The position numbers and the translations under genes were made by a program. 64,000 bases of DNA from a bacterium (GTDB lineage: Bacteria > Myxococcota > UBA727 > JAUIJE01), in the NCBI GenBank assembly GCA_030431455.1, contig JAUIJE010000008.1, forward strand, positions 124,001 through 188,000, read 5' to 3'. The notes beneath the pieces are model-generated. The model was given only the letters and a program-made list of their open reading frames with translations. It made no database searches and was not told the DNA's origin. Numbering within the stretch: the first letter of the stretch is position 1; each line of letters opens with the position of its first letter. Below are positions 26,970 through 40,212 of the stretch, in pieces.

Positions 26970-28541
26970 GTGGCGGACGCGCTGAGCCCTGGGCAAGAAA
27001 TCGGCCCCTACACCATCGTCGCCCCTCTCGGGGAAGGCGCGATGGGGCAGGTCTACCTCGCCGACGACCCCGGGCTCGAACGCCAGGTCGCGATCAAGGT
27101 CCTGCCCATCGGCGCGGCCGATTCCGAAGGGCGCGCGCGGTTTTCGCGGGAGGCCCAAGCGTTGGCCCGGACCGACCACGAAAACGTGGTCCAGGTGTTC
27201 GCGTCGGGCGAGGACCAGGGCGTGTCCTGGATGAGCCTCGAGTACGTGGCCGGCCGGCCCCTGTCGGACCTGGTGGCCCACGGCCCGCTCGACGAGGAGA
27301 CCGCCCTGCTCCTGTGCGCCCAGGCGGCGCGGGGGCTCGCCGCGGTGCACGCGGTGGGGGTCGTGCACCGCGACGTCAAACCCGCGAACCTCCTGCTCGA
27401 CGAGAGCGGCACCGTCCGGGTCAGTGACTTTGGGGTCGCGCTGTTCTTGGATGTCGCCGGCAAGGGGGGCTTCACCACCCAAAAGGGCATCGCGGTGGGC
27501 ACGCCCCACTTCATGTCGCCCGAACAAGCGCGCGGCGAGACCGTCGATGGACGCGCGGACACATGGGCATTGGGTTGTACGCTGTTCATGCTGCTCACCG
27601 GGCGGCCCCCGTTTTACGCCGGGGACGACGAGTCAGACCTCGACATCCTCGCCCGGGTCTTGCGGGAGGCCGCCCCCGACCTGCGGGAGGTCGCGCCGGC
27701 GGCCAGCCGCGGCACCGCCCGCTTGCTCGCGGCGATGCTCGCCCGGGACCGCGACGAGCGCCCCGACGACCTCGACGACCTCGCCGACGCGCTGGAGGAC
27801 CAAGCCGCCGCCCTCGCCGACGAGAACGACGAGAACGACGATGGGGACAGCGACCGGCCCGCGGACCGCGCCGCCGCGCCCGCCCCCGAGGCCGCGCCCC
27901 CAGGCGCGGTTCCGGTCCCGGCCGCCCCCCCCTCCCGGGCCGCGGGGGTGTTGCTCGCGTCGGCGGGGGTGTTGCTGGTGGCCCTCGCCGCGCTGTTGCT
28001 GTGGGTGGGTCCGGCCGACCAGGACCCCGGTGGCGCCGGCCCGCGGGCGCCTGACCCCACGCCCCCCGGCGAGGCCGCCCCCCCGGGCGACGACCCGTTG
28101 CGCATCGGCGCCCCCGACGCGCCCCCCGCGACCCCGCCGGACGCCCCGCCCCCCGATGACGGGTCGACGCCCGATCGTTGGGTCGCCGCGATCCAGCGCG
28201 GCGGACCCGCGGCCGACGCCGCGGTGGTGCAGCTGCTCGCCCGGGAGGACGACGCGGCCAAGAACGCGGTGTTGCAGTTGGTCGACGACGACCGCACCGC
28301 CGCGTTCGTGGTGCGCAACATCGGCGCCGGCCTGGTCACCGCGCACTTCGAGGCCTTGGTGAAGGCGGTGCAGGAGCCCGACGTCGGCACCGCCCAGGCC
28401 GCGGTGCGCGCCTTGGGGCGCTTCCGGACCATTCGCGCGCACGAGGTGCTCAGCCGCACGGCCGAGACCCACCCCGACAAGGCCGTGCGCGACGCCGCCC
28501 AGCAAGCCCGCAAAGCCATCTTCTCCGTCGAGGGCGAATGA
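26970..28541 (+). CDS. membrane Ser/Thr protein kinase with HEAT-like C-terminal region
   Basis: 523 residues. Kinase domain: GEGAMGQVYL at 21-30, Lys43, HRDVKPAN at 133-140, DFG at 153-155, GTPHFMSPEQ, and RADTWALGC. All catalytic residues are present. An Asp/Glu/Pro linker precedes a transmembrane helix near 320-342. The outer part has a Pro-rich stalk and a C-terminal helical repeat (about 425-520, AVVQLLAREDDAAKNAVLQLV and following) that looks like HEAT or PBS lyase-like repeats. GTG start. Its stop overlaps the ADP-ribosylglycohydrolase start as ATGA, the first link of a three-gene coupled operon. Confidence 0.9.
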   Translation: MADALSPGQEIGPYTIVAPLGEGAMGQVYLADDPGLERQVAIKVLPIGAADSEGRARFSREAQALARTDHENVVQVFASGEDQGVSWMSLEYVAGRPLSDLVAHGPLDEETALLLCAQAARGLAAVHAVGVVHRDVKPANLLLDESGTVRVSDFGVALFLDVAGKGGFTTQKGIAVGTPHFMSPEQARGETVDGRADTWALGCTLFMLLTGRPPFYAGDDESDLDILARVLREAAPDLREVAPAASRGTARLLAAMLARDRDERPDDLDDLADALEDQAAALADENDENDDGDSDRPADRAAAPAPEAAPPGAVPVPAAPPSRAAGVLLASAGVLLVALAALLLWVGPADQDPGGAGPRAPDPTPPGEAAPPGDDPLRIGAPDAPPATPPDAPPPDDGSTPDRWVAAIQRGGPAADAAVVQLLAREDDAAKNAVLQLVDDDRTAAFVVRNIGAGLVTAHFEALVKAVQEPDVGTAQAAVRALGRFRTIRAHEVLSRTAETHPDKAVRDAAQQARKAIFSVEGE

Positions 28542-29455
28542 GCCCGGCCGATGGGCTCGCGCGGGCGCGCCGGGCGTTGCTCGGCTGCGCGGTGGGCGAC
28601 GCCTTCGGCGAGACTTTTTTCCGGCGACTGGATGAGCTGGTGCGGCCGCTGATCGCACAGCGGGTGCTCCAGGAGGGCGATTGGCCGGTCACCGACGACA
28701 GCATGCTCAGCCTCGCGGTGTTCGAACAGTTGGCCGAGCGCGGGGACATCGACCCGGACGACCTCGCCCGCCGCATGCAGTGGCATTATCAAGCGGACCC
28801 GGGCCGCGGCTACGGGGGGGGCATGCACGACCTGTTCGGGCGCGGCGCGGTCGGGGCCGGGGACGCGGCCGCGTTGTTCGGCGGCACCGGGAGCTATGGC
28901 AACGGGGGCGCGATGCGGGTGGCGGTGGCCGGCGCGTACTTCGCCGACGACCCCGCCGCCCTCGTCGACCAAGCCGCGCGGAGTGCCCGGGCCACCCACA
29001 CCCACCCCGAGGGGGTGGCGGGGGCGGTGGCGTTCGCCGCCGCCACCGGGGCTTTGGTGCAGGGCGCGCGCGGCGCGAATGTCATCGCCGCGGCCCGGGG
29101 CCCCGTCGAGCACGGACCGGTGGCCGACGGGCTAGAGGCCGCGGCCGCCCTCTACCCCCGGGGCGTGTCCGCGGGCAAAGCTGCAGCGACATTGGGCAAC
29201 GGGGCCCGGGTCAGCGCCGCCGACACCGTGCCCCTGTGCGTGTACATCCTCGCCACCGCCGGCGACGCGCCCTTCGACGAGGTCTTGTGGCGGACGGTGG
29301 CGTGCCTCGGGGACCGGGACACCACCTGCGCGATGGTCGGCGCGGGGTTGGCCGCGGCGGGCTGGTCCGTGACCCCGGCGTGGATCCCGCGGGTGGAGAT
29401 GCCGGAACCGCTCCGCCGGGCCCTCGCCCCGCTGGTCGACGAGGCCGCGGCATGA
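28538..29455 (+). CDS. ADP-ribosylglycohydrolase (DraG/ARH family)
   Basis: 305 residues of the ADP-ribosylglycohydrolase fold. Metal and ADP-ribose ligands are visible: GDAFGE at 20-25, the TDDS motif at 52-55, SYGNGGAMRV near 118-127, THTHPEG near 150, and GDRDTTCAMVGAG near 275. Known members remove ADP-ribose from Arg or Ser on proteins, or process related ADP-ribosyl compounds. Target unknown here. The start is fixed by ATGA overlap with the kinase stop and the stop overlaps the next start in the same way. The neighbouring kinase suggests joined control by phosphorylation and ADP-ribosylation. Confidence 0.92.
   Translation: MSPADGLARARRALLGCAVGDAFGETFFRRLDELVRPLIAQRVLQEGDWPVTDDSMLSLAVFEQLAERGDIDPDDLARRMQWHYQADPGRGYGGGMHDLFGRGAVGAGDAAALFGGTGSYGNGGAMRVAVAGAYFADDPAALVDQAARSARATHTHPEGVAGAVAFAAATGALVQGARGANVIAAARGPVEHGPVADGLEAAAALYPRGVSAGKAAATLGNGARVSAADTVPLCVYILATAGDAPFDEVLWRTVACLGDRDTTCAMVGAGLAAAGWSVTPAWIPRVEMPEPLRRALAPLVDEAAA
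28775..28788 (-). repeat. dispersed motif copy, full-length
   Basis: TAATGCCACTGCAT on the minus strand, antisense in the ADP-ribosylglycohydrolase. The gene strand reads ATG CAG TGG CAT TAT CAA, with CAT, TAT and CAA all non-preferred. Confidence 0.55.
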
Positions 29456-30897: not shown

Positions 30898-31191
30898 TCA
30901 CCAGGGAAAATCGTCGTCGAGGACGGTGTTCGGTCCGCCCGGTCCTGAACCGCCGGCGGGGAAGTCCACCTCGGCGAACAGCAACGTGTGACACCGGCGC
31001 AGGACATCGAGGGAGAGGTTGCGCCGGTGGCGCTCCCGCAGGAACACCGAGGTCAAGTAGGTCAGCCGCTCCTGGGCCGAGGCCCGCGACCCCAACACCA
31101 CGCGGCTGCGGGCGAGCAGGCTGCGCGCGGAGCGGTCGGTGGCGTCCGGGGCGCGGGGGGTGGGGGTCGGTGGGGTGGCAAGCAGCATCAT
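30898..31191 (-). CDS. small hypothetical protein
   Basis: 97 residues starting at an ATG seven bases after GAGGA. There is a short hydrophobic start (MMLLATPP), then an Arg-rich helical stretch (about 20-75) and an acidic end (DDDFPW). No family recognised. Codon use and the ribosome site make it a plausible gene, but it could be spurious. The 200 bases upstream hold no other gene that I can support. Confidence 0.5.
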   Translation of the reverse strand: MMLLATPPTPTPRAPDATDRSARSLLARSRVVLGSRASAQERLTYLTSVFLRERHRRNLSLDVLRRCHTLLFAEVDFPAGGSGPGGPNTVLDDDFPW

Positions 31192-31405: not shown

Positions 31406-32989
31406 TCAGAGACCGAGCAGATCCGCGCGCAGGAGCGACAGCAGCGCGCTCAGCTCCGGCCCCACCCCATCGCAGCCCTGGACATCCACCGACTCGTCCA
31501 CCGGCACCCCGTTGACCGTGATGTGGCGGGTCAAGGTGGTCTCCACCGCGGCATCCGGGCGCGGCTGGGGACACAGGGGGTCGTCCCCCGCAAACAACGT
31601 GTCCGCCTCGGTGCTCATCGCCAGCGTGACCAGCTCGTCATAGTCCGCGAACCCGAGCCCCACCGAAAGGGGAATGGCCAGGTCGAGCACCACCGTCATC
31701 TGCTGGTCGCTGGACACGCTGGTCGTGGTTTCGCACGCCAACAACAAACACGGATCGCGCACCACCAACTCGTCGATGCGCACGAACAGCCGCACGTCCT
31801 CGACGACATCGCTGCAGTCGATCATCACCGCTTTGTCGATCACCACCGCGAGAAGCTCGCCGGTGACCTCGACCACGTCAAACACGAACCCGCCGCACCA
31901 CTTCTCCGCGTCCCGGCTCACCTCGATGGTGCCGACGTGCGCGCCCACCTCGAGGCTGTAGTCAAACGCCACGCTGGCCTGCCCTTGGGCCGGGGCCATC
32001 ATGGTCTCACCGAGCAACGTCACCGCCACCGTCTCGTCGCCGTCGAGGCCGGTGACGGTCAACCGCGCATCGACCTCCAGCTCTCCACAATAGGTCAGCG
32101 TGGCCTTGTCCAGGGTCACCCCCACCGGCATCTCCGGCACCACCGCGGTGATGATAAAATCGCCACACCATCGTTGCGGGCCGCGCTCGACGACCACCGA
32201 CCCGTCGTACGCGCCTGGGGCCAAGGCGTACATGAACGCCGCGGTGTCCAGCCCGTCCGCGGGCCGCTGCTGGACTTCGCCACCGACATCGACGGTGACC
32301 GCCTCATCGCCGTCCAGGCCGGTCACCGAGACCACCACCTCCACCTCCGTCACCGGGGTGCAGTCGGCCAGCCCGGGCTTGGCCACCAAAAACTCCGTGG
32401 TCGGCGCGCCCGCCGGCACCACCACGTCGAACATCCCGCACCATCGCTGGGCCCCATCCTGAACCGTCACCGACAGGGGATAGGTGCCGGGGGCTTGGGT
32501 GTACACCAGCCGAACCTCGGCGCTGCCGGCCGCGGGCGCGGTCCGGGACGCCCCGTCGAGTACCACCTCGATGCTCTCGGTCCCGTCGAGCCCGTCGACC
32601 ACGACCACGAGGTTGTCCAAAAGCGGCTCGGGGTCGCGGCAGTCGGCCAAACCCGCGCGGTCGACGCTGGTGGTGGCCCGGCCGCTTCCGCCTTGCACCT
32701 CGAGGGAGAAACTGCCGCACCACCGGCCGTCCCCCTCGATCACGAGTCGTCCGGTGTTGGTGCCGTTTTCGAGCTGGAAGTAGAACCGCATCTCCCGTTC
32801 GCCGGCGGCGTCGACCTCGCGGGTCTCTCCGGCGAGGTCGACGGTGAGCCGTTCGGTCCCGGTGAGGCCGGTGACGACGAGCTCGGCGTTGGTCTCGGCG
32901 ATGACGATGCTCGACGGCCCGATCGGGCAGTTGGCGCCCCCGATGAGCACGGCCGCGCACAGCACCAGGAGGAGACGGCGCGCGCTCAT
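31406..32989 (-). CDS. secreted protein of four tandem ~91-residue Trp-Cys-Gly repeats
   Basis: 527 residues with a signal peptide (SARRLLLVLCAAVLIGG). Four repeats follow. Each opens with V-x-GL-x-G-x-E-x-x-x-V and a beta-rich stretch, then has R/K-WCG-x-F at 90-92, 183-185, 274-276 and 364-366. A second Cys lies 26-27 residues after each WCG Cys (117, 210, 301, 392), so one disulfide per repeat is likely. A diverged tail of about 130 residues has extra Cys. The fold looks immunoglobulin- or PEGA-like, but I recognise no family. Start ATG seven bases after AGGAGG, overlapping the caspase stop as ATGA. It is the last gene of the sigma/caspase operon. Confidence 0.8.
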   Translation of the reverse strand: MSARRLLLVLCAAVLIGGANCPIGPSSIVIAETNAELVVTGLTGTERLTVDLAGETREVDAAGEREMRFYFQLENGTNTGRLVIEGDGRWCGSFSLEVQGGSGRATTSVDRAGLADCRDPEPLLDNLVVVVDGLDGTESIEVVLDGASRTAPAAGSAEVRLVYTQAPGTYPLSVTVQDGAQRWCGMFDVVVPAGAPTTEFLVAKPGLADCTPVTEVEVVVSVTGLDGDEAVTVDVGGEVQQRPADGLDTAAFMYALAPGAYDGSVVVERGPQRWCGDFIITAVVPEMPVGVTLDKATLTYCGELEVDARLTVTGLDGDETVAVTLLGETMMAPAQGQASVAFDYSLEVGAHVGTIEVSRDAEKWCGGFVFDVVEVTGELLAVVIDKAVMIDCSDVVEDVRLFVRIDELVVRDPCLLLACETTTSVSSDQQMTVVLDLAIPLSVGLGFADYDELVTLAMSTEADTLFAGDDPLCPQPRPDAAVETTLTRHITVNGVPVDESVDVQGCDGVGPELSALLSLLRADLLGL

Positions 32990-34527
32990 GGCGTGTCCTC
33001 CTCTTGCAAAGCCATGAACATCAAGCCCCCCGACGCCACCAGGGCGACCAGGCTCGCGGCCCCCGCCGCCCCCGCGGCGGTGAGCCAGGCGTCGGTCATG
33101 AACGCGAGGTCGCCGTCGAAGGTCCCGGTCTGCTCGTAGCGGGTGCGCAGCGCGGCCAAACTCAGGCCGTTGCCGACGACGCAGATCGCGGCCGCGGCCG
33201 CGAGCAGCGAGGCGGTGCCGAGGCCGGTGGCGGTGAACGTCCACCAGGGCACCCGCCAGGCGGGGGCGGCCTCGGGGGCGAACGCGGGGGTGAACGGCCC
33301 CCGGGTGAGCGGGCTCGGCAAATGTTGCTGCGCGGTGAAGCCGCTCAGGTACGCGGGGCCAAAGCCGGCGGCGAACAGGCCCTCGAACACGTCGAGCTGC
33401 ATGGCGCGTGACACCGGCGCGGGGTTGAAGTCCAGAGCGCTCAATGCATAGGCACCCGGCGAGCGCGGGTGCCAGATCGCCTCCCGGTCGCCGACCCGGA
33501 CCACGTACGACGACGAGCCGGCCAAGGTGAGCAGCACCGGCTCGGTCTTTTCCCGGTGAAAGGCCACCAGCGGCAAGCCCTGCCCGTCGAGGATCTCGAC
33601 CGGCGCGGGGGTGTTGATGTCGACGTACAGGAAGTGCTCGGCCGCGGTCTGGGTCAAGTCCATGAGCGGGGCGTGCGGACGTTGGGCGGGGGGGCGCGCG
33701 TACACGTCGAGATGGGCGCGGGTGTCCTTGACCGTTTGGTTGGCGGCGGTGACGAAGGCGGCGCCCTCGGTGTACTCGATGACGGCGTCGCCGTTGGTGT
33801 CGGCGGCCCCGGACAGCGCCGAGCGCAACAGGAACGAAAACAGCCCGCCGCCGATGGACGCGCTCTCGTGCACCTGGGCCGCGGTCGAGGTGGACACGAA
33901 GTAGCCCACCCGGGGGTTGTCGGTCGCGGCCGGGGCCTCGAGGGCCTGGCGCATTTTTTCCGTGAGCTTGACCGGAGGGGCCTCGGCGCTCCCCCGCGGG
34001 ACCATGAAGAACGACGCGCAGGCGTCGATGACCACGTGGGTCACATCGGCGGGCGACGGGCCCGTGACCTGGGCCGCGAGCTCGGCCCGGGTGAGCGCGC
34101 CGTCACCGAGAATGAGCCGGCCCTCGCCCCCGGGGTCGACGTCGCCGTGCCCGGCAAAAAAGAACCACAGCTCGGTGGGGCGACCTTGGTCGCGGGCTTC
34201 GCGCACCGCCCAAAACGCTTCGCCGATGGTGCGGGACAGCTCGTCCTTGGCCGGGGCGCGGGCCTGTTCGCTCAGTCGCCCGTAGTTGAACGCAGACTCA
34301 TTGTCGAAGGTGGTGTGCAACCAGGCGCGCTCTACGCTGGGCGACAACAACTGGTACATCCGCGCGGCGTCGTCGTCGGCGAACGCCAACCGCGGGTAGG
34401 CGGCCGTCCCCGGCCCGTTGTCCCCCACCACGATGGCAAACCGCGCAGGGCCGGCCGGGGCCGCGGTGGGCGCCGGGGGGGGCACCGCCGACGAGAGCGC
34501 ACACAGGACGAGCAGGGTGGCGGTCAT
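32986..34527 (-). CDS. caspase-fold (peptidase C14) protein with signal peptide and membrane anchor
   Basis: 513 residues. A signal peptide ends near 25 (TAAPAGPA). The caspase/metacaspase fold starts at RFAIVVGDNG. The catalytic dyad is visible as His127 in FFFAGHGDVD and Cys170 in HVVIDACASFF. The domain continues to about 260, with GGLFSFLLRSAL and an EF-hand-like DTNGDAVI segment. A linker leads to two C-terminal hydrophobic helices (about 425-450 and 478-502). If the signal is cleaved, the protease acts in the periplasm, held by the C-terminus. Both ends overlap neighbours as ATGA. Bacterial caspase-like proteins often act in signalling or death pathways. Confidence 0.9.
   Translation of the reverse strand: MTATLLVLCALSSAVPPPAPTAAPAGPARFAIVVGDNGPGTAAYPRLAFADDDAARMYQLLSPSVERAWLHTTFDNESAFNYGRLSEQARAPAKDELSRTIGEAFWAVREARDQGRPTELWFFFAGHGDVDPGGEGRLILGDGALTRAELAAQVTGPSPADVTHVVIDACASFFMVPRGSAEAPPVKLTEKMRQALEAPAATDNPRVGYFVSTSTAAQVHESASIGGGLFSFLLRSALSGAADTNGDAVIEYTEGAAFVTAANQTVKDTRAHLDVYARPPAQRPHAPLMDLTQTAAEHFLYVDINTPAPVEILDGQGLPLVAFHREKTEPVLLTLAGSSSYVVRVGDREAIWHPRSPGAYALSALDFNPAPVSRAMQLDVFEGLFAAGFGPAYLSGFTAQQHLPSPLTRGPFTPAFAPEAAPAWRVPWWTFTATGLGTASLLAAAAAICVVGNGLSLAALRTRYEQTGTFDGDLAFMTDAWLTAAGAAGAASLVALVASGGLMFMALQEEDTP
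34290..34303 (-). repeat. dispersed CAATG-N3-CTGC motif copy
   Basis: CAATGAGTCTGCGT, in sense with the caspase gene, read as AAT GAG TCT GCG. AAT and TCT are rare here. Confidence 0.5.
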
Positions 34528-35249
34528 CCCCCGCCCTCCTCGGGGGGCGCCTGGACGGTCAGATACAGTGACATGCCGGCGCCATCGGGGGTGCGGACCA
34601 CCGCGGTCAGGGTCGTGGGCACGTCCTCCACCGGCCAGCCGGTGGGCACCGCCACCGAGGCGTGGGGGGTGAGCGCGAAGTCATCGACCCAGGTCGCGAC
34701 CTCCCCGCGACGTGGCCCGCGCAAGCTGAGCGTGGCCGCCGCCTCTTGGTGGGCCTCGGCGGTGACCCCGACCAGCCCCCCGAGCGGACAGGACAGCACC
34801 GCGCCGGTCTCGCGCCGGCCAAAGGAGGCCCGGTCGAGGGCCGCGCCGCTCGGGGCCAAACACGTCGCGACCACCTCGACCACGTCCTGCGGCCCGCCGC
34901 GCGGACGCCAGCCGTCGTCGGGGTCGGGCCCGGTCTGGAGCACGAACAGAACCGCCACCGCCCCGGCCGCGGCCATGGCCGGCACCCACCAGCCGGTGCG
35001 CGTGGGGGGGGCGGACGCGGGCGGCGGCAGGGCTTGTTCGATCGCCGCCCACATGCGTTCTTTTTGGCCGGCCGTGGCCACGCTCGACGAGGGCGTGGCC
35101 GATTGTTCGGCCGCGCGCAGTTCGGCCCGGATCGCGCCCCAGGCCGGGTCTCGGTCGGCGCGGGCGAGCACCCGCCGGCCCCACCACGACGAGGGCGCGC
35201 TCATGGCGCGGCTCATCAACTGCAGGCGAAACTGATTCAGCGGGCTCAT
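34524..35249 (-). CDS. single-pass membrane protein, probable anti-sigma factor
   Basis: 241 residues. A helical, charged N-terminal part of about 85 residues precedes one transmembrane helix (about 88-105, VPAMAAAGAVAVLFVLQ). A beta-rich outer domain of about 130 residues follows, with two Cys. This is the topology of membrane anti-sigma factors, and the start overlaps the sigma-factor stop as ATGA, the usual arrangement for an ECF sigma/anti-sigma pair. No classical zinc-binding H-x3-C-x2-C motif is seen, so the call rests on topology and context. The stop overlaps the caspase start in the same way. Confidence 0.68.
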   Translation of the reverse strand: MSPLNQFRLQLMSRAMSAPSSWWGRRVLARADRDPAWGAIRAELRAAEQSATPSSSVATAGQKERMWAAIEQALPPPASAPPTRTGWWVPAMAAAGAVAVLFVLQTGPDPDDGWRPRGGPQDVVEVVATCLAPSGAALDRASFGRRETGAVLSCPLGGLVGVTAEAHQEAAATLSLRGPRRGEVATWVDDFALTPHASVAVPTGWPVEDVPTTLTAVVRTPDGAGMSLYLTVQAPPEEGGG

Positions 35250-35908
35250 TCCTGTGCCCCATTCTTACGCGGCAAGAACCGGCGTCCGATCGCCACCGCC
35301 GCGTTTTGCAAAAACCCGTGCTTTCGCAGGTGGTTGAGCAGATCCAACCGCAGCCGCGCGTCGATGCGCCGCACCTTGCCCACCCCCAACGACAGGGCCG
35401 CGGCCGCGCGGTCCAGGCTCAGCCCATCGCCGTAGCGGACCCGGAACACGTCGGAGTCGGGCGGGGTCAACCCCTCGACGAACCCGTCGACCAGCCGGAC
35501 CAGCTCCCCGGCCTCTTGCACCTCGTCCGCGGGCGCGTCGGGGCCCGCGACCCGGTCCAGCTCGATGCCGCGCACTTCGTGTTTGCGCTCTTTGGCCAGC
35601 CGCCGCCCGCGGTCGATGACCAGGTTGCGCGCCACCGTCGACAAATACGCCCCATAGGGGCGCAGCCCGTCGTAGCTCTGCCGGGCCTTGTCGGAGAACG
35701 CCTTGATGAACGTCTCCTGCACCAGGGCCTCGACCTCGTCGTCCCCGATGTCCTGGCCGAGCCGCACCAGCCCCGCGTCGGTCTGGACCCGCACCCCGCT
35801 GCGCACCACCACGAGCACATCGTCGACGAAGGCCTCGTACACCGCCCGCAGCGCGTCTCGATCCCCCCGTCGGAATCGGTCGAGCAGCGCGCGGTTTTCG
35901 TGCAACAT
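35246..35908 (-). CDS. ECF-type RNA polymerase sigma factor
   Basis: 220 residues from the ATG of MLHENRALL; a GTG-type extension upstream is less likely. Region 2 is clear: DEVEALVQETFIKAFSDKARQ, then GAYLSTVARNLVIDRGRRLAKE. Region 4 has the helix-turn-helix pattern PPDSDVFRVRYGDGLSLDRAAAALSLGVGKVRRI. The 40-residue insert in region 2 (FVDDVLVVVRSGVRVQTDAGLVRLGQDI) is longer than in most ECF factors. First gene of a four-gene operon held together by ATGA overlaps, so it probably controls its own operon. Divergent from the SRPBCC gene, with only 47 bases between starts. Confidence 0.9.
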   Translation of the reverse strand: MLHENRALLDRFRRGDRDALRAVYEAFVDDVLVVVRSGVRVQTDAGLVRLGQDIGDDEVEALVQETFIKAFSDKARQSYDGLRPYGAYLSTVARNLVIDRGRRLAKERKHEVRGIELDRVAGPDAPADEVQEAGELVRLVDGFVEGLTPPDSDVFRVRYGDGLSLDRAAAALSLGVGKVRRIDARLRLDLLNHLRKHGFLQNAAVAIGRRFLPRKNGAQE

Positions 35909-38565: not shown

Positions 38566-40212
38566 ATGTTCGCTTACGTCGACAAACCGCGCCCTGATGA
38601 GCTCATCCGCCCCCTGTCCGCCGAGGACATGCCCGAGGCGGTGTTCCTGCTCAGTGGAGAAAAACTCGCCATCGTCGGCGGCAACCACGAGGCGGGGTTC
38701 CGCGGCTTTTCGCCCGACCAACTGCTCGCCATGCGCTTCGCCGACCTGGTGCCCGGGGCCAGCCTGGAACTGTTGCAACAGTGCGCGCGGGGCGAACACG
38801 ATCCGCACCCCACCGCCCCGCTGCGGTTGCGCGTGCGCGACGCCCAGGACGCGTCCGCCCCCGTCGACATTCGTGTCCAGCTTCGCCCCGATGGCCGGTT
38901 GGTGGCGAGCCTGCGGGTGCGCAGCGAACAGGCCTACATCGACGAGCGCGAGCTGGTGGAAATCGTCTGCCACGTGCCGGTGGCGATCGCGACCTGGCAC
39001 CCCCAAGGGCAGGTCGTGTCTTGGAACCCGGCCGCCCGCGCGCTGTTCCAACGCGAAAACCTCATCGGGGACGACATTCTCAAGGTCGTGCCCCGCGCCG
39101 ACCGGCCGGCGTTCATGCGCGCCTGCCGGGTGGTGACCGAAACCGGCGAGCCCGAGGTGCACAACGTGATGCGCATCCTCGGCGACGGGACCGAGATCGA
39201 AATCGAAGAGTCCATCTTCCTCGTGCGCGACCCCGCGGGCCAACCGCGTCGGTTGTGCGGCGCGTGGCGCGACCGGGCCGAGGTCGCGGTCTGGCGCCGC
39301 CGTGCAGAAGCATTGCAGCCCCCCGCCCCCGCAGGCGACGGCCTCACCGTCGATGAAGCCGCGCGGCTCGCGGCCCAGGACGACAAAGCCACCGTGCTGC
39401 TGCTGGGCGAGACCGGCGTGGGCAAGAGCACCCTCGCCCGGTGGATTCACGCCCACAGCCCGCGCAAGGCGGGGCCGTTGCTTGAGATCAACTGCGCCGG
39501 GCTCAGCGCCGAGCTCGCCGAGAGCGAACTGTTCGGGCACGAACGCGGGGCGTTCACCGGCGCGCACTCCCAAAAACGCGGCCTGGTCGAGGCCGCCCAC
39601 GGGGGCACGCTGTTGCTCGACGAGGTGGCGGAGCTGCCGCTGTCGGTGCAGGCCAAGCTGCTCACGTTCCTCGACGACGGCGCGTTCCGCCGGGTGGGCG
39701 GCGTCGGTCCTCTGCGCAGCGACGTGCGGCTGATCGCGGCCACCAACCGCGACCTCGCCGGCCTCGTCGAACAAGGCGTGTTCCGCGAGGACCTGTACTA
39801 CCGCTTGCAGGTGGTGCCGCTCGAGCTGCGCCCGCTCCGCGAACGGCCCGACGACATCGAGGACATCGCCCGCGCCATGCTCGAGAACCTCTGCCAAAGC
39901 CGCGGCCGCGCCGTGCCCGCCCTGACCCCGTCCGCGCGCAGCACCCTGCGGCACGCCCGCTGGCCGGGCAACTTCCGCGAGCTCAAGAACACCCTCGAGC
40001 GCGCCCTGGTGGTCAGCGACGGCGGCCCCATCGACGCGGGTCATTTCAGCCTCGACGCCCCCGCGGCCGGGGGCGACACCCTCGACGAGGTCGTGGTCCG
40101 GCACATCGAGCGTGTGCTCGACGAGGAAGGCGGCAACCGCACCCGGGCCGCGGCCCGCTTGGGCATCGATCGCACGACCCTGCGCCGGCGCTTGGCGGCG
40201 AAAAAGGCCTGA
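38566..40212 (+). CDS. PAS-type sigma54-dependent transcriptional activator
   Basis: 548 residues. Two PAS-like sensor domains (about 15-115 and 125-235, the second with [19 protein letters not shown]). The AAA+ domain has Walker [25 protein letters not shown] with the sigma54-contacting GAFTGA, Walker [10 protein letters not shown], and [10 protein letters not shown]. The C-terminal Fis-type helix-turn-helix reads [22 protein letters not shown]. It activates sigma54 promoters in response to a signal sensed by PAS, probably small-molecule or redox. No receiver domain is present. The divergent 135-base gap to the GH13 gene holds no clear -24/-12 element. Confidence 0.93.
39302..39315 (-). repeat. 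dispersed motif copy, full-length
   Basis: CAATGCTTCTGCAC on the minus strand, antisense in the sigma54 activator. The gene strand reads GCA GAA GCA TTG, a run of four non-preferred codons. Confidence 0.55.

Follow-up and report, generated by a model that had tools for sequence, protein, structure and literature searches.

A caspase-fold protease as a candidate site-1 protease of membrane anti-sigma factors in Myxococcota

To our knowledge, bacterial caspase homologues are widespread but few have a known substrate, and the caspases of multicellular bacteria are usually discussed as death enzymes. What such an enzyme might do when its gene is translationally coupled to those of a sigma factor and a membrane protein is the question raised by a locus in a 64,000-nucleotide stretch of a Myxococcota genome (assembly GCA_030431455.1, contig JAUIJE010000008.1, positions 124,001 to 188,000; hereafter the window). 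Four open reading frames, all on the minus strand, lie at 35908-35246, 35249-34524, 34527-32986 and 32989-31406 of the window, and encode an extracytoplasmic function (ECF) sigma factor, a single-transmembrane (TM) anti-sigma-type protein, a predicted exported caspase-fold protease and an exported protein with WCG repeats. The three junctions are all ATGA overlaps (35246-35249, 34524-34527 and 32986-32989), and the genes and coordinates given in a first-pass annotation were exact in this respect. The same annotation proposed that the caspase resides in the envelope and cleaves the anti-sigma protein. Comparative analysis lends this idea strong indirect support, because the synteny is conserved, a basic-glycine site in the anti-sigma linker is absent from most caspase-free controls, and the S1 pocket predicted for the protease matches this site. 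We therefore favour, as fairly probable, a role of the caspase as the site-1 protease that cuts the membrane anti-sigma, within a three-gene signalling module present throughout the Myxococcota, a phylum of bacteria from soil and water.

The order of sigma, anti-sigma and caspase genes recurs across the phylum, often with the same 4-base overlaps, and the arrangement in the window is thus more than a product of chance. Of 146 related genomes, 112 contain relatives of the caspase, and several copies in one genome are common. We examined 60 fetched regions and 80 named loci, including loci of Plesiocystis, Enhygromyxa, Hyalangium, Archangium, Pyxidicoccus, Corallococcus and Myxococcus, with neighbouring genes called by our own codon-composition script and left uncurated. 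Among 118 distinct Myxococcota caspase loci, a sigma gene lies within four genes of the caspase in 89, a single-TM protein adjoins the caspase in 102, and both are present in 83. The single-TM genes are located on the caspase strand in 80 cases, of which 48 show an overlap of 4 or 1 bases, and are divergent in 22. A search of 10 genomes with the caspase and anti-sigma profiles placed 59 of the 68 full-length anti-sigma relatives within 3 kb of a caspase, against 2 of the 23 proteins that match the N-terminal anti-sigma domain alone. The genome of the window itself encodes ten caspases of the family, nearly all with neighbouring sigma or anti-sigma genes. The distance matrices of sigma factors, anti-sigmas and caspases correlate with one another (Spearman 0.42-0.57, compared with permuted maxima of 0.16-0.24), to which shared ancestry contributes. 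The conserved core is a unit of ECF sigma factor, single-TM anti-sigma and exported caspase, three genes and not the four of the first-pass annotation: the synteny that it asked to be checked is borne out for these three and fails for the WCG gene, whose relatives were found in only three loci of close relatives. As a separate observation, one locus in the window's genome (L038, contig C21) contains a caspase of the family with no called sigma or anti-sigma neighbour.

Of all the columns in the anti-sigma alignment, the most conserved lies just outside the membrane. In the window protein it corresponds to Arg117, which is followed by Gly118 (WRPR-GG; 34896..34901), and this candidate site-1 cleavage site falls within a juxtamembrane linker (residues 107-120; 34890..34931) that is disordered in the AlphaFold2 (AF2) model, with predicted local distance difference test (pLDDT) values below 50. 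Over 95 anti-sigma clusters, formed below about 60% identity, the column contains Arg in 70, Lys in 24 and Val in one, and the next column contains Gly in 78 and Ser in nine; a first alignment had given 44 Arg and 6 Lys in 50 sequences. A scored motif (threshold 3) was detected in 90 of 95 caspase-linked anti-sigmas but in only 4 of 22 controls, which are zinc anti-sigmas from related genomes that adjoin sigma genes, have no caspase and carry ectodomains other than those of the family (Fisher 3e-13). The background for this motif is 27% in shuffled linkers and 18% in the 40 residues that come next in the caspase-linked proteins. An independent regular expression returned 92 of 101 caspase-linked proteins against 8 of 25 controls. 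As the motif score was devised after the family had been seen, the comparison with controls and the alignment column carry more weight than the score. A looser test, for [RK][GSA] anywhere after the TM segment, was satisfied by 101 of 101 proteins and was discarded as too permissive in favour of the controlled tests. The count of pairs with Arg or Lys follows from the way in which the motif finder is built, and was left out of the evidence.

Taken at the level of sequence, the conserved R/K-G pair looks like the cutting site of the protease. The linker consensus has Phe, Trp or Leu at P4, Ala, Ser, Pro or Val at P2, Arg or Lys at P1 (basic by construction), Gly before Ser before Ala at P1', and Gly or Ala at P2'. 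This resembles the preference measured for the paracaspase MALT1, for which the best substrates are LVSR and LVPR, with Leu at P4, Ser or Pro at P2 and Arg at P1, while P1' is almost exclusively Gly, with some Ser and little Ala (PMC6207715).

The protease itself, of 513 residues (32986..34527), contains a putative signal peptide (residues 1-25; 34453..34527), a caspase domain (residues 28-290; 33658..34446) and two predicted C-terminal membrane helices (residues 428-508; 33004..33246), located at about 428-467 and 474-508 by sequence and AF2 model. The His127/Cys170 dyad, the hydrophobic N-terminus and the C-terminal helices are thus all present as first annotated, and a crude test finds a hydrophobic N-terminus in 80 of 95 caspase relatives. 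The AF2 model has a pLDDT of 84.8, with most of the caspase domain above 90. A Foldseek search with this model returned MALT1 as the top match (E = 2.7e-7), and VIA gave a Z-score of 20.1 to Arabidopsis metacaspase 4 (AtMCA4; 219 residues, r.m.s.d. = 2.9), with legumain close behind. By its model, the protein is a metacaspase or paracaspase, with the His-Cys dyad in a caspase fold that characterizes peptidase family C14. Searched against Pfam, the window protein yielded no match up to E = 1, PF00656 included; this profile is matched by 21 of 38 relatives.

Among 141 sigma-linked caspases, a set that includes near-duplicates, the catalytic His127 (34147..34149) and Cys170 are invariant, as are Asp168 (34018..34026, together with Cys170), Glu221 in loop L5 (33865..33867) and Glu254. 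Asp53 in helix alpha-1 (34369..34371) is Asp in 140 sequences and Glu in one, and Asp243 is nearly invariant. In MALT1, the pocket for the P1 arginine is formed by D365 (alpha-1), D462 (L4, two residues before the Cys) and E500 (L5), and counterpart acids in TbMCA2 are D95 and D211 (PMC4357240). Asp53, Asp168 and Glu221 match the three MALT1 acids when assigned by sequence position and secondary structure, and are predicted to line an S1 pocket on alpha-1, L4 and L5, as in metacaspases and paracaspases. Residues 243-254 (33766..33801) form an EF-hand-like loop, DTNGDAVIEYTE, identified by a profile match to EF-hand proteins in the PDB, and EF-hand_5 is matched by 15 of 38 caspase relatives. 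The loop, bounded by Asp243 and Glu254, suggests calcium binding within the protease.

A second site of the same type as that of the linker is found in the caspase, where R178-G179 (MVPR-GS; 33991..33996), in the loop after Cys170, is a candidate self-processing site by conservation. In 95 sequences, position 178 is Arg in 75 and Lys in 20, and position 179 is Gly in 87. A distant subfamily of caspases has K-G in the corresponding loop (16 of the 17 tabulated), and the anti-sigma linkers of this subfamily, read by eye, likewise contain K-G. The Arg and Lys types of caspase loop and anti-sigma linker associate across all pairs (Fisher 1.7e-5), an association that amounts to about one evolutionary switch, because the sites do not covary further within subfamilies.

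In the mechanism that we propose, the membrane protein probably restrains the ECF sigma factor, and would hold it at the inner membrane. Since the caspase appears to be exported and anchored by its C-terminal helices, its catalytic domain would lie on the periplasmic side, where the anti-sigma linker and ectodomain would also be exposed. A signal, possibly with calcium gating at the EF-hand-like loop and self-cleavage at R178-G179, would switch the caspase on, and the linker would be cut at R117-G118. A site-2 protease of the M50/RseP type, together with cytoplasmic proteases, would then free the sigma factor; M50 protease genes are present in the window's genome. A fuller statement, for which we regard the chances as evenly balanced, is that phylum-wide, multi-copy paracaspases facing the envelope serve as anti-sigma site-1 proteases with MALT1-like specificity for R/K-G, and contain both a built-in calcium loop and a site for self-processing whose sequence is of this same type. 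In either form, the proposal supplies a candidate physiological substrate for a bacterial caspase, with a predicted scissile bond that is repeated over many loci.

Several observations weigh against cleavage by the caspase. The anti-sigmas are mutually homologous, so that conservation of the linker site could reflect another role; likewise, the ectodomains of the controls are unlike those of the family, and shared ancestry may explain the conservation. Within the subfamilies, no further covariation of cut-site residues was detected (p about 0.3). The R-G of the caspase loop also occurs in caspases not paired with an anti-sigma here and may be structural, which leaves self-processing as a suggestion. 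Some family caspases in the 10-genome search have no anti-sigma nearby, and at least two anti-sigma relatives, in loci L245 (FGVR-S) and L274 (RIK-G), carry the motif with no caspase seen nearby, although a caspase acting on them in trans is possible. Finally, the window anti-sigma has lost its zinc ligands, with Arg, Asp and Trp at the three HxxxCxxC positions. For this reason, we describe it only as an anti-sigma-type member of its family; judged by its relatives, it is a zinc-class anti-sigma by descent, and it retains the other features of class I anti-sigmas, namely a helical N-terminal domain, a single TM segment and a gene adjoining that of an ECF sigma factor.

These points have to be set against what other explanations leave unaccounted for. 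The logic could be reversed, with the sigma factor freed by another protease or by a conformational signal and switching on the operon, the caspase being an output that cleaves proteins of the envelope or brings about cell death, and the linker R/K-G serving another protease or a structural purpose. Co-transcription with the sigma factor suits autoregulated output genes as well, a promoter-like TTGTC-N15-TGGAT precedes the caspase in the divergent layout, and a cell-death role was suggested for Myxococcus metacaspases in a 2012 survey (PMC3501461). We nevertheless consider an output role unlikely, as it explains neither why R/K-G is present in caspase-linked anti-sigmas and missing from most caspase-free ones, nor the paracaspase-like character of the site, nor the tight coupling and translational overlap of the caspase and anti-sigma genes. 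The basic linker might instead occupy the caspase uncut, as an inhibitor or pseudosubstrate, while the proper target of the caspase, which it would activate or mature, is the partner lipoprotein or the C-terminal part of the caspase itself. Caspase inhibitors often fill the S1 pocket, and a bound peptide would suit the predicted acidic pocket equally well; however, cut sites typically have Gly or Ser at P1', and structural comparison of the ectodomain revealed no inhibitor fold (the best match, Z = 5.6, is uninformative), so that we rate this arrangement as quite improbable. Slightly less credible still is that the three genes travel together by ancestry alone and the substrates of the caspase are unrelated. 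It would accommodate the caspases and anti-sigmas that lack the other nearby, but the linkage is kept in both the same-strand and the divergent layout and is shared by several paralogues within a genome, and the three distance matrices correlate, albeit with a contribution from shared ancestry. Cleavage of the anti-sigma by the caspase remains the reading that we prefer.

The sigma factor, of 220 residues (35246..35908), contains sigma-70 regions 2 and 4 only, as expected of the ECF group, and scores above the curated cut-offs of TIGR02937 (E = 3.9e-15; 55.9 bits, cut-off 42.9), PF07638 (30.1 bits, cut-off 21.1) and PF04542. Standard ECF promoter patterns were not enriched over shuffles in the regions 5' of the sigma genes. 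The pair TTGTC-N15-TGGAT is conserved in Myxococcaceae where the sigma and caspase genes diverge (intergenic in L047, L048, L050, L061, L129, L140, L156, L159, L160 and L169), and may represent a promoter of the sigma factor itself. In this divergent layout, the caspase has no C-terminal helices of its own and is followed by a conserved protein of ~250 residues, for which one or two C-terminal TM helices are predicted (L047 7210-7980, L049 7200-7958, L129 7173-7919); this protein may supply the membrane anchor.

The anti-sigma-type protein, of 241 residues (34524..35249), was assigned by family alignment and by the ATGA overlap with the sigma gene. Its AF2 model has a mean pLDDT of 67 and hence modest confidence, and predicts a cytoplasmic anti-sigma domain of four helices (residues 3-73; 35031..35243), a TM helix also evident from the sequence (residues 89-105; 34935..34985) and a β-rich extracytoplasmic domain (residues 124-216; 34602..34880). 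Most members of the family carry an N-terminal HxxxCxxC, and zf-HC2 is matched by 15 of 42. Family searches with the window proteins returned no match for this reading frame and none of note for the WCG protein. The best structural match of the ectodomain, to RhoGDI (105 residues, r.m.s.d. = 3.4), was set aside, as Z-scores of at most 5.6 are too low to be informative.

The WCG-repeat protein (31406..32989) is predicted from its sequence to be exported, and is probably a lipoprotein, with a weak lipobox at Cys21. It has four repeats of about 90 residues, with WCG at residues 90, 183, 274 and 364 and a second Cys 26-27 residues after each. A tandem-repeat search of its DNA yielded nothing, and the repeats are visible at the protein level alone. 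The three loci with relatives are L036, L043 and L045. The genes that follow the caspase vary, and encode FN3/FG-GAP, Ig-like, thrombospondin-3 or DUF7151 proteins, the last with EF-hand or LRR matches, as well as WCG repeats; by a crude test, 18 of 62 first downstream genes have a lipobox, compared with a background of 10% (p = 3e-4). The WCG protein, first taken for a conserved partner, is thus a lineage-specific occupant of a variable slot enriched in lipoproteins, and may act as a lineage-specific sensor or output. No caspase relative was found in viral contigs.

Elsewhere in the window, a 97-residue reading frame without a family match lies downstream of the operon (30901-31191, minus strand). 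A gene for an NtrC-type sigma-54 activator with a PAS domain (38566-40209, plus strand) is close to the operon but separate from it, and a Ser/Thr kinase gene with HEAT repeats (26970-28538, plus strand) is directly followed by an ADP-ribosylglycohydrolase gene (28538-29452, plus strand).

The proposed sequence of cuts has its closest parallel in regulated intramembrane proteolysis by the DegS-RseA-RseP system, in which a single-TM anti-sigma is first cut at site 1, close to the membrane on its periplasmic side, and then by a site-2 protease. The site-1 enzymes known for anti-sigmas are DegS-type serine proteases, PrsW and signal peptidase, and the caspase would, if the proposal is correct, represent a new protease class in anti-sigma control. 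In the CalpL-CalpT-CalpS system, a protease also cuts an anti-sigma factor and frees an ECF sigma factor. The first-pass annotation cited CalpL as a precedent for caspase logic, but it is a cytoplasmic SAVED-Lon protease and not a caspase; the window protease has a caspase fold, and no SAVED or Lon match was found among the window proteins. The appropriate caspase-fold comparison is Csx29-Csx30-CASP-sigma, in which a caspase-fold protease cuts the inhibitor of an ECF-type sigma factor (PMC10028731). Csx29 is, however, a cytoplasmic TPR-CHAT protein of another caspase subfamily, activated by CRISPR RNA, and that system lacks a signal peptide, a membrane anchor and a zinc anti-sigma (PMC10028731). 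No TPR or CHAT match was obtained for the window proteins, and the caspase has an export signal and membrane helices instead. ECF genes also stand beside caspase-fold genes in ECF54 systems with CHAT proteins and in EACC2-caspase-ECF systems, but the control proposed for ECF54 involves no anti-sigma and the EACC2 systems carry other partner domains (PMC8999054, PMC8195603).

The first-pass annotation did not recognise the arrangement of the window, yet sigma-70 and metacaspase operons were already reported in 2012. According to that survey, four of the five M. xanthus metacaspases are in operons with sigma-70 genes, and such operons also occur in Anaeromyxobacter, Haliangium and Sorangium (Asplund-Samuelsson 2012, PMC3501461). 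These are very likely the same operons as those described here. The available part of the survey reports the co-occurrence with sigma factors and suggests the cell-death role, with no mention of an anti-sigma, topology, specificity or cleavage site (PMC3501461). In the searchable open-access papers, which are only part of the literature, we found no report of a caspase as an anti-sigma site-1 protease, of its topology or of its cut site. If our proposal holds, caspase-fold proteolysis would be a routine step of transmembrane signalling, with the caspase carrying a signal from the surface to the genes. MALT1 also has a caspase fold, with its S1 acids in corresponding positions and a preference for Arg at P1 and Gly at P1', but is a eukaryotic cytosolic immune protease, whereas the present family also has Lys at P1, an EF-hand-like loop, a signal peptide and membrane helices. 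Paracaspase-like cutting between Arg and Gly would then have arisen in bacteria too as a way to lift a block on transcription, the part that MALT1 plays in NF-kappaB signalling.

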